Source: Methanothermococcus sp. SCGC AD-155-E23 (GTDB taxonomy: Archaea; AGJL01; Methanococci; Methanococcales; Methanococcaceae). From it: a stretch of 36,797 nucleotides of DNA. Positions within the stretch are counted from its first letter, which is position 1; each line of letters begins with the position of its first letter. The stretch lies in NCBI GenBank assembly GCA_019561615.1, contig JAHEQA010000045.1:35740-72536 (forward strand). Reading direction: 5' to 3'. The notes under the pieces are model-generated. The model was not told the DNA's origin. It was given only the letters and a program-made list of their open reading frames with translations, and did not search any database. Below, in pieces: positions 28,374-31,564 of the stretch. The position numbers and the translations under genes were made by a program.

Positions 28374-28449
28374 TGGTGCGCCAGTCGGGATTTGAACCCG
28401 AGTTGCTGGCTTGGAAGGCCAGAGTGATACCAGGCTACACCACTGGCGC
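28374..28449 (-). tRNA. tRNA-Gly (anticodon TCC), CCA encoded
   Basis: The minus strand gives a full cloverleaf: acceptor GCGCCAG / CTGGCGC, D-arm with GTAGCCTGGTATCAC, anticodon stem CTGGC/GCCAG with loop CTTCCAA (anticodon TCC at 34-36), T-arm CTCGGGTTCAAATCCCGA, discriminator A at 28377, followed by genomic CCA at 28374-28376. It reads GGA (and GGG by wobble). It lies 9 nt downstream of the tRNA-Gly(GCC) gene and is probably cut from the same transcript. No intron. Confidence 0.97.
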
Positions 28450-28458
28450 ACTACAAAG

Positions 28459-28531
28459 TGCGGCCTCCGGGATTTGAACCCGGGTACCGGCCGTGGCAGG
28501 GCCGTATGATACCAGGCTACATCAAGGCCGC
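28459..28531 (-). tRNA. tRNA-Gly (anticodon GCC), CCA not encoded
   Basis: The minus strand forms acceptor GCGGCCT / AGGCCGC, D-arm with GTAGCCTGGTATCAT, anticodon stem CGGCC/GGCCG with loop CTGCCAC (anticodon GCC), T-arm CCCGGGTTCAAATCCCGG and discriminator A at 28459. The next three bases are CTT, so CCA must be added after transcription. It reads GGC and GGT. It is the first of two tandem glycine tRNAs. A TATA-like TTATATATATTATCC lies upstream at about 28568-28583. Confidence 0.97.
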
Positions 28532-29507: not shown

Positions 29508-30293
29508 CTAGGGCTGTATTAAACAGCCTTTACTACAGTACCTGTTTTTACACCTGTAAGGTAGGAGGGCCCTCCTTACACTCTCCAGAGCTATATACCC
29601 TGCCTCGTGAAGGATGGTATCCTCCAACTCCCTGTCGTACTCCATACTCCCAAGACATGGGTAGTTGTGATGGGCCTTGATTACCTCCTCCTTTAACTCT
29701 CCCAGAGGCTTTCCTCTTATCCTCTTTGCTATGTAGTAGGTCATGCCACAGGGTGCCGACACCAACACCTTGGCATCCACCACCTTATGCCCCTCTACCT
29801 TTACCTCCATCTGGGGATATCCTATCTTGAAGTAATCTATAAATTTGTTAAGTATCTCCCTTCCCTCCTTCTTCTCTAAGGCGCAGAAAGGTTTTGGATT
29901 CTCAAAGTCCATACCTAATTTTTCACAGATCTCCCTTAGGGTGTTTCTCATAGAGGGGGACAGATCCCTGGGACTCTCAGAGGGCACTATAAGTAATCTA
30001 TACCCCTTATCCCTTATAATATAGGGGAGTTCGTAGAGGAGATCCTGGTGAAGTTGGGCTACTATCACCTCCCCCCTGGGGATCTCAGGGATGTACTCAG
30101 AGGGATCCTCTATAAACTCCTCCCTCCCCACAGGAGGTATAACAACCCTCTCCACCTCCTCCCTATAACTCCACTCTCCACGGCAGTTATAGCAGTCCTC
30201 ACATATCCTACAGAAATCCCTGTCATTTATTAAATGGTGGTAAAATCTCTCCATCCCCTGGTTACCCTCATGATATAGAAAAGTAAGTCTCAT
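29508..30293 (-). CDS. Cysteine-rich DUF166-type protein
   Basis: A 261-aa protein of undefined function, tentatively DUF166 (PF02593), a mostly methanogen family once mislabelled thymidylate synthase. The N-terminus has four regularly spaced cysteines, C28/C31/C34/C37 ([11 protein letters not shown]), a CxxCxxCxxC pattern suggesting an iron-sulfur cluster or zinc. The middle is a Rossmann-like region ([17 protein letters not shown]); [14 protein letters not shown] and a C-terminal [10 protein letters not shown] carry more cysteines. The ATG follows GGTGA. It heads a run with hisB and ogt; nothing links it to histidine synthesis except position. Confidence 0.65.
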
Positions 30294-30354: not shown

Positions 30355-30603
30355 GGTTATCCCTCAACACTAACACCATTCCTCATCCTTGGCCTACGCC
30401 ACGTCAGAATGGCTAACCCTATGTTGAGGGGTTATGGGGATTTTTACTATACCCTGATCATCCCCAGGGAAGAACTCCCCTGTCACAGGGCTCACCCTCA
30501 AAATCCCCTTAAATTTAAGTATCCCTTCAATATCGAACCCGCTATCATCGCAGGGGTAATCCCCCTATGCTCCATGTGGGTCGGTTCATTGAAGGGCATT
30601 GAT
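30355..30603 (-). ncRNA. Candidate triple-hairpin H/ACA guide RNA
   Basis: GC-rich RNA in the 338-bp spacer between nadA and the DUF166-type gene. On the minus strand three hairpins follow one another, each closed by a perfect 9-bp helix: CCCTTCAAT/ATTGAAGGG (30588-30596 with 30523-30531), GGGGATTTT/AAAATCCCC (30500-30508 with 30436-30444) and CCCTCAACA/TGTTGAGGG (30422-30430 with 30361-30369). Each helix is followed immediately by ATA, the archaeal ANA box. Each has an internal loop above the closing helix and a 3'-strand GATGA; in hairpins 2 and 3 a TGA faces it, the L7Ae kink-turn pattern. A TATATAAAC box lies at 30622-30630 and T-runs at the 3' end. Likely guides rRNA pseudouridylation; targets not determined. 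Confidence 0.75.
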
Positions 30604-30621: not shown

Positions 30622-30630
30622 TATATAAAC
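30622..30630 (-). promoter_or_regulatory. TATA box of the triple-hairpin RNA
   Basis: The plus strand reads TATATAAAC (minus GTTTATATA), preceded on the minus strand by GTTAAA, a BRE-like sequence that overlaps the nadA stop codon. The distance to the first helix (30596) fits a start around 30600. The identical 9-mer precedes the second structured RNA. Confidence 0.65.
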
Positions 30631-30631
30631 T

Positions 30632-31564
30632 TTAACCTCCACTGATAGATAGCATATAGTCGATAGCCCTTTTAGCCCTCTCTATTATCTCCTCATCTAG
30701 TACAACCTCGTACTTCTCCTCTACTAAACACCTCTCCAACTTCTCAAGGGTTATCCTCTTCATGGGCTCACAGATGGCATCCTCCCTTAGAGGTATTAAC
30801 TTCTTCTCCTCCCCCCTCTTTTCCAACTCTATCTTCAGCCTAGTTATCATGTCCACCTCGGTACCTATTATAAATACCTTCTCAGGGGAGTTGAGAACAT
30901 GTTTAACCATACCCCCTGTACTGTAGACGTAATCTGCCATCTCCTGGACATCAGGGTCACACTCAGGATGCACTAAGACCTGGGCATCTGGATACTTCTT
31001 TTTAACCCTCAATATATCCTCAACTGTGAACTTCTTATGTACGTAGCAGTGGCCATCTTCAGGCACTGGGATTATCTTCTTCCCAGTTCTCTTCTCCACG
31101 TAGTATCCAAGGTTTCTATCTGGCCCAAATATAATCTCATCCTCTTTAAAGGAGTTAACCACGATATGGGCATTTGCAGAGGTACATACTCCATCTGCCA
31201 GAACCTTGACCTCTGAGAGGGTATTTATGTATATAACCACCTTGGCGTTGGGATGCCTCTTTTTAGCCTCCATTATCATCTCAGGGGATAGTTGATGGGC
31301 CATGGGGCACTCTGTATCTTTAATCTCAGGTATCAGTACTTTCTTGTCCTTGTTAAGTATCTTTGCAGTTTCAGCCATAAAATCCACACCACAGAATACC
31401 ACAATATCGGCATCTGTCTTCTCAGCTATCCTACAGAGCTCCAGGGAGTCACCTATAAAATCGGCAACCCTCTGGATCTCTTCAGGTTGATAGTTGTGGG
31501 CGAGTATTATGGCGTTTTTCTCCCTCTTTAGTTTATCAATCCTCTCCCTTATGCCCATCACCAT
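30632..31564 (-). CDS. nadA: Quinolinate synthase NadA
   Basis: 4Fe-4S enzyme condensing iminoaspartate with dihydroxyacetone phosphate to quinolinate in NAD synthesis. The 310-aa protein opens with AIILAHNYQ and shows the three internal repeats of NadA. Probable cluster ligands are Cys86 (ECPMAH), Cys173 (GHCYVH) and Cys265 (AICEP). Other signatures are FCGVDFMAETAKIL and MVKHVLNSP. ATG 31564 is 3 bp after the stop of the ThiF-like gene; ATG 31558 is an equally possible start. The partner aspartate oxidase or dehydrogenase is not in the window. Confidence 0.95.
   Translation of the reverse strand: MVMGIRERIDKLKREKNAIILAHNYQPEEIQRVADFIGDSLELCRIAEKTDADIVVFCGVDFMAETAKILNKDKKVLIPEIKDTECPMAHQLSPEMIMEAKKRHPNAKVVIYINTLSEVKVLADGVCTSANAHIVVNSFKEDEIIFGPDRNLGYYVEKRTGKKIIPVPEDGHCYVHKKFTVEDILRVKKKYPDAQVLVHPECDPDVQEMADYVYSTGGMVKHVLNSPEKVFIIGTEVDMITRLKIELEKRGEEKKLIPLREDAICEPMKRITLEKLERCLVEEKYEVVLDEEIIERAKRAIDYMLSISGG

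Follow-up and report, generated by a model that had tools for sequence, protein, structure and literature searches.

Box H/ACA guide RNAs with three hairpins in a row, carrying ANA boxes and kink-turns, are known from Thermococcales under the names HgcG, Pab40 and Pf7. In PMC4652768, Pa40.3 is assigned to L2016, the equivalent of position 1915 of Escherichia coli 23S ribosomal RNA (rRNA), Pa40.1 to L2588 and Pa40.2 to L1932, and the ability to guide modification at the 1915 equivalent is reported for Pa40.3, for Af4.3 and for a relative in M. jannaschii. Here we analyze a 36,797-nucleotide (nt) stretch of Methanothermococcus sp. SCGC AD-155-E23 (the window), in which three consecutive hairpins occupy minus-strand positions 30596-30358, between nadA and a DUF166 gene. 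A preliminary description made from the letters alone had seen in them the pattern of an archaeal H/ACA guide. Their anatomy and covariation, together with conserved sites in 23S rRNA, support that view, and we consider the element very probably a stand-alone gene (30358..30600, minus strand, with the start placed from a TATA box and hairpin 1) for a three-hairpin archaeal box H/ACA guide RNA.

Other described systems share parts of this picture. Archaeoglobus Af4 also has three motifs, of which Af4.3 targets the 1915 equivalent, and Haloferax Hvo2 targets that residue and also 1917; the remaining targets, S1167 (Af4.1), L2601 (Af4.2) and L2621 (Hvo1), appear to differ from the sites predicted here, unless L2601 corresponds to 2554. 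Among eukaryotes, yeast snR191 and human U19 are reported to act as guides at the counterparts of the two helix-69 sites (PMC2584109). Pseudouridine 2504 of E. coli is made by RluC (PMC7600485). RluC is a protein-only enzyme, whereas the RNA described here would serve the same 23S site as a guide. The A-loop residue equivalent to 2554 is presumably guided in yeast by snR10. What PMC1766470 gives is the broader statement that snR10 is among the guides for the peptidyl-transferase center. The kind of RNA that we describe is already known; its predicted role as a guide for U2504 and the apparent change of target in its second hairpin look new. A literature search that also drew on PMC6138745, PMC7991803, PMC12123411 and PMC4644070 and left aside the main P. 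abyssi H/ACA paper (10.1093/nar/gkn077) and supplements returned no archaeal guide for U2504 and no described Methanococcales guide besides the M. jannaschii relative of hairpin 3, so that U2504 looks new as a guided site in archaea, with an earlier description possible.

Anatomy and covariation of the three hairpins

The three perfect 9-bp minus-strand helices that had been pointed out, each followed directly by ATA and each enclosing an internal pocket and a GATGA strand, can be read straight from the sequence, and all nine pairs of every lower stem are Watson-Crick. Hairpin 1 (30520..30596) has the lower stem CCCTTCAAT (30596-30588)/ATTGAAGGG (30531-30523) and its ATA box at 30522-30520; its pocket has a 5' arm GAACCGA (30587-30581) and a 3' arm UCGAU (30536-30532), and kink-turn-like strands lie at 30576-30569 and 30551-30542. 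Hairpin 2 (30433..30508) has the lower stem GGGGATTTT (30508-30500)/AAAATCCCC (30444-30436), ATA at 30435-30433, pocket arms GAGGGUG (30499-30493) and UAGUA (30449-30445) and a kink-turn in which UGA (30485-30483) faces GAU (30459-30457). Hairpin 3 (30358..30430) has the lower stem CCCTCAACA (30430-30422)/TGTTGAGGG (30369-30361), ATA at 30360-30358 and a kink-turn of UGA (30406-30404) with GAG (30384-30382). Its pocket had been recognized correctly, but the arm UGUUAG proposed for it was one base too long: the next G.U pair is the last layer of the upper stem, and the arms are therefore better taken as UAGGGUUA (30421-30414) and GUUAG (30374-30370).

The distance from the ANA box to the top of the pocket, counted on the sequence, is 14 nt in all three hairpins, within the 14-15 nt rule for archaeal H/ACA guides given in PMC4652768. 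A reading of the sequence also gives each hairpin a lower stem of 9 bp, 5 nt in the 3' arm and some 10 stacked layers once GA and mismatch layers are counted, which corresponds to the "10/5/9" productive fold of the same source. Hairpins 2 and 3 read as standard kink-turns, with UGA opposite GAU or GAG. Hairpin 1 contains an A bulge and an A.C mismatch, and its kink-turn is nonstandard (GGA with GAU); most relatives retain this arrangement, and L004, L018 and L147 show variants of it.

The repeated architecture had been said to exceed chance, and the predicted fold agrees: a 281-nt stretch folds at -100.4 kcal/mol, compared with -82.9 +/- 5.3 kcal/mol for 200 shuffles, none of which was as stable (z -3.3). 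Relatives were drawn from 36 genomes of the order, 22 of the window's family and 14 of its sister family (G029-G042), with the window genome as G000; we take the two families to be Methanococcaceae and Methanocaldococcaceae, the latter being the other Methanococcales family in NCBI. Covariation was counted on structure-fitted alignments because MAFFT alignments misregistered some of the lower stems. The alignments of hairpins 1, 2 and 3 held 36, 37 and 35 sequences (30, 33 and 29 distinct), that of hairpin 2 including three extra rows that are in fact hairpin 3 (second matches in L125-L127) and were still counted.

A lack of covariation had been named as grounds for abandoning the identification. 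In these alignments, which by construction lean towards the structure, 89.5, 95.3 and 92.4% of cells are paired in hairpins 1, 2 and 3, versus 80.6, 76.3 and 75.3% in shuffles, and none of 500 shuffles reached the observed share for any hairpin; sliding the pairing partners as a control left 35-53% of cells paired. Pairs with changes on both sides number 13, 16 and 13, values equalled in 0, 0 and 4 of 500 shuffles. In the alignments of relatives, few parts of the hairpins are as well conserved as the pocket arms.

Predicted sites in 23S rRNA

If the RNA works as others of its class, L7Ae would bind the kink-turn of each hairpin and Cbf5-Nop10-Gar1 would lie along the pocket and the ANA box; the two pocket arms would form duplexes with the 23S rRNA that flank an unpaired U-N, whose U would be turned into pseudouridine by Cbf5. 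We infer on this basis that the RNA is expressed, assembled into a ribonucleoprotein and used for modification. The predicted sites are U2504 in the peptidyl-transferase center for hairpin 1, and U1915 in helix 69 for hairpin 3. For hairpin 2, most genomes of the order point to U2554 in the A-loop, but U1917 is more likely in the window genome and its two closest relatives.

These predictions come from a scan of 23S uridines in 12 genomes, and of 16S uridines in 5 of the 12, scored by the energy of the two arm duplexes; 23S numbering is that of E. coli, checked by alignment with rrlB, and the 23S rRNA of L016 was scanned together with the flanks of its locus. Hairpin 1 scored best at U2504 in all 12 scanned genomes, hairpin 2 at U2554 in 11 of 11 (with U2555 second) and hairpin 3 at U1915 in 10 of 12. 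For genome G010, with its own arms and rRNA, the number of 300 shuffled-arm trials that did as well was 2 for hairpin 1, 1 for hairpin 2 and 94 for hairpin 3. The targets of the window RNA were judged on the 23S rRNA of G015, since the window genome's own 23S gene is cut off, and here just 1 of 300 shuffles equalled hairpin 1. The A-loop motif is identical in all 26 genomes of the order examined, and the helix-69 motif is identical in 24 of the 25 genomes where it was found, G037 being the one that differs. Pairing with rRNA had been put forward as a further test of the identification, and it yielded a conserved 23S site around a uridine for each pocket.

Hairpin 2 of the window differs from the common form. 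Its arms are GAGGGUG and UAGU, compared with UAGGGCG and CAGU in L004-L006, and the three substitutions are common to G000, G011 and G012; no copies resemble that of the window more than those of the last two (94 and 98% identity, a ranking by similarity and not by tree). On the G015 23S rRNA, the best site for these arms is U1917, at -9.2 kcal/mol with 6 + 4 pairs, a fit equalled by only 2 of 300 shuffled arms. By reading, every one of the substitutions contributes an additional Watson-Crick pair to the 1917 site, and at 2554 two of the three make the pairing weaker. With the G015 23S rRNA used throughout, none of the other 31 hairpin-2 sequences reaches at least 3 pairs in both arms at U1917, a count in which the 3' arm was mispicked for L125-L127 (a lower-stem motif was taken in place of the true arm, ACAGC), so that those rows are excluded as evidence.

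These same substitutions might be no more than drift, tolerated through G.U pairs, in an H/ACA RNA whose hairpin 2 still guides U2554 in the window lineage. U2554 remains the second-ranked site there, paired over 5 + 4 bases with three wobbles at -6.9 kcal/mol, and it is the leading site in every relative scanned. The explanation is a credible one, in which we place rather less than even confidence: drift would have to account for the gain of a Watson-Crick pair at U1917 by all three shared changes and for the confinement of such pairing to these sequences. The balance tips slightly towards a retargeting of hairpin 2 from U2554 to U1917 in the window lineage, and the sequence is also compatible with a hairpin 2 that could serve both uridines. 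The fuller proposal, in which a Methanococcales RNA guides modification of U2504 and its hairpin 2 was moved by three substitutions from U2554 to U1917, with neighboring hairpins serving U1915 and U1917, is one that we hold tentatively, at a little short of even confidence.

Joint change of guide and rRNA at hairpin 1

Both hairpin 1 and the corresponding 23S region were available from 25 genomes, 15 of the window's family and 10 of the sister family; a pattern search did not find the 2504 region of 23S rRNA in G000, G011, G012, G014 or G018. Across the 25, the arms pair at 10-12 of 12 positions, and positions 2500-2503 and 2506-2509 are paired in every genome. Position 2510 varies and is nevertheless paired in every one of the 25: 22 genomes have U facing guide A, G041 has U facing guide G as a wobble, and two have C facing guide G (G031 and G037, the latter to be read with caution, as its 23S rRNA shares just 83-87% identity with those of nine other members of its family). 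Unbroken pairing at 2510, including two compensated changes, suggests selection on pairing. The case of G031 also served as a prediction: its rRNA has C2510, a guide with the matching G was sought beside hairpin 2, and the arm AGCCGA was found there. Position 2512 is paired in 16 of 25 genomes (U-A in 10, C-G in 6), and 2499 is paired in 7, where the guide has U, always with rRNA A (7/7). Altogether there are 273 pairs, compared with a mean of 264.9 and a maximum of 272 in 20,000 permutations of the guides among genomes, although the genomes permuted are related, not independent, and the result is not a probability.

Base 2499 itself, which precedes U2500 of the peptidyl-transferase center (e.g., in L031, L086 and L148), is A in 10 of 10 sister-family genomes and 4 of 15 of the window's family, and C in the other 11. 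We considered a strict coupling between 2499 and the last base of the 3' arm. Within the window's family guide U occurs with rRNA A and guide A with rRNA C in all 15 genomes; the coupling failed in the sister family, where guide A accompanies rRNA A in 7 of 10, and it was rejected.

Several observations weigh against the guide interpretation or parts of it, the relatedness of the permuted genomes among them. At hairpin 1, position 2512 is unpaired in 9 of the 25 genomes; the covariation at 2499 is one-sided, since 7 further genomes with rRNA A keep an unpaired guide A and the 11 with rRNA C are unpaired; and pairing at U2506 requires opening of the A-U pair that closes the upper stem. The number of further pair types in the covariation analysis was equalled in 467 of 500 shuffles for hairpin 1, 3 for hairpin 2 and 204 for hairpin 3 and is thus unexceptional for hairpins 1 and 3. 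For hairpin 3, U1915 ranked second in L009 and third in L006, and complementarity alone is weak, being equalled by 94 of 300 shuffles; its target therefore rests on homology and conservation, not on energy. Helix 69 of G037 (L203, G037:C5:1-2500, near 141) reads AACCCUGAC, so that there is no uridine at the 1915 equivalent but a C, while the hairpin-3 arms of that genome fit U1915; the difference is either a real change or an assembly problem. Finally, the window genome's 23S sequence ends before the predicted sites. That gene (L037, G000:C32:1-3527, approximately 1-320) breaks off partway, and the contig closes with two tandem copies of a short stretch, which are probably an assembly artifact.

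An alternative is an H/ACA RNA in decay, which would still bind L7Ae and Cbf5 and modify only some of the predicted sites, with, for example, an unproductive pocket in hairpin 1. Nonproductive guide-target pairs are reported from Pyrococcus in PMC4652768, most with a GA stem that does not have 10 layers and two with a weak 5' duplex, and hairpin 1 has the bulge, mismatch and nonstandard kink-turn noted above. A decayed hairpin 1 accords poorly with pairing maintained at the variable position 2510 in all 25 genomes, two compensated changes included, and we regard this possibility as unlikely.

Locus, distribution and named relatives

Upstream lies nadA (30632-31564, minus strand; NadA, PF02445) and downstream the DUF166 gene (29508-30293, minus strand; PF02593), the Pfam matches bearing out the neighbors named in the preliminary description; no open reading frame of at least 80 amino acids overlaps the three-hairpin stretch. 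The claim that the RNA has its own TATA box also has support. The TATA-like promoter element TTTATATA lies at 30622..30629 on the minus strand, and when the listing is read by eye, 29 of 36 sequences have a motif of the form TTTATATA, TTATATA or TATATA(T/A) that begins 25-37 nt ahead of the match to hairpin 1; a script using its own range of 28-48 nt counted 23 of 36. From the sequence, the 3' end of the RNA would lie at or shortly past the last ATA box, ahead of a T-rich stretch. Two adjoining tRNA genes are found elsewhere in the window, at 28377-28531 on the minus strand (Rfam tRNA, 65 and 58 bits).

DNA matches at E <= 1 occur in 21 of the 22 window-family genomes, several of them not credible on their own. 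Models of hairpins 1, 2 and 3 each found 34 of the 36 genomes of the order. Hairpin 1 of G031 was added by hand: the model missed it even at E 10, and gave 21.7 bits when applied to the spot beside hairpin 2 where it sits. No hairpin of the three was found in G017, an assembly 89% complete, and G019 has hairpins 1 and 3 only. By coordinates, all three lie at one locus in 20 of 22 genomes of the window's family. In the sister family, hairpins 1 and 2 are side by side in 14 of 14 genomes and hairpin 3 is at a separate place in 13, with none found in G036. The hairpins would thus form one RNA in the window's family and two, of two hairpins and one, in the sister family.

Some additional copies were seen. 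G009 has a further two-hairpin RNA (hairpins 1 and 3; L147/L186, G009:C1:356197-356355) nearly identical to that of G019, a member of another genus. G010 has a truncated extra hairpin 1 (L022, G010:C2:872556-875609) beside what appears to be the gene that follows the two-hairpin RNA of G019 (L018), which suggests a transferred or decayed second locus. Another H/ACA-like hairpin, with an ACA box and arms GGCCCA or GGGCCCA, occurs at L202 (G037:C20:12671-12742) and L206 (G040:C86:3363-3436) and is possibly a separate guide.

At Rfam gathering thresholds, only the two tRNAs are reported in the window. With E up to 10, the best match of the region is HgcG/Pab40 (RF00064), at 40.3 bits (E 6.5e-10) against a cutoff of 77 bits. 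The proposed check with archaeal H/ACA covariance models was accordingly borne out in that HgcG aligns over the whole element, and fell short in its score. By eye, hairpin 3 carries the alignment, hairpin 1 contributes weakly, and hairpin 2 is left to inserts that do not align. HgcG scored 22.6 to 47.5 bits in 14 of 15 scanned relatives (L017 had no match), compared with 192-207 bits in five Thermococcus/Thermococci genomes. Hairpin 3 shares with HgcG the pocket motif GGUUAGCC ... GAUGA ... GUGUUA as well as its site, whereas the arms of hairpins 1 and 2 differ from those of HgcG, as do their predicted sites (2504 and 2554/1917). By arithmetic on its distance from L2016, L2588, the site of Pa40.1, would lie at about 2496, not 2504; a 23S pattern search of six genomes, four of them Thermococcus, gave no Thermococcus 23S rRNA, the one Thermococcus match not being rRNA by its surroundings. 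We decided against classifying the RNA as HgcG, given a score under the cutoff and different predicted targets for two of the three hairpins. On sequence grounds, we regard it as an H/ACA RNA whose kinship with HgcG lies in hairpin 3 and not as an HgcG member by the Rfam rule.

The snR191 model (RF01263) scores 26.9 bits for the window (cutoff, 46) and aligns with hairpins 1 and 2, window hairpin 2 falling on the second hairpin of the model with UAGUA common to both. It also matches L002 (26.7 bits), but with E allowed up to 0.1 it gives no match in the remaining 14 scanned relatives, including L003, which has the same arms. Unlike the window RNA, snR191 is eukaryotic, and the likeness may stem from a common target.

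That the element is instead a structured part of the nadA 3' untranslated region or the DUF166 5' untranslated region, a riboswitch or processing element that is only H/ACA-like, is highly improbable: although it lies between two same-strand genes, with its TATA box a few bases past the nadA stop codon, its neighbors vary (the DUF166 gene, from a reading of the flanks, does not adjoin the hairpins in L007, L008, L009 and L010), the sister family has the hairpins at two separate loci, conservation is among the highest in the pocket arms, and only H/ACA models score E below 0.01 in the Rfam scan of the region.

Read as a three-hairpin guide RNA, the element offers a concrete map from guides to ribosome sites for an archaeal order with little rRNA-pseudouridine data in the literature searched. 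It also provides a natural series, with a joint change of guide and rRNA, one hairpin that seemingly switched its target, and one-RNA and two-RNA layouts in sister families. Taken together, these results suggest that a peptidyl-transferase pseudouridine that is made by a protein in E. coli is RNA guided in Methanococcales.
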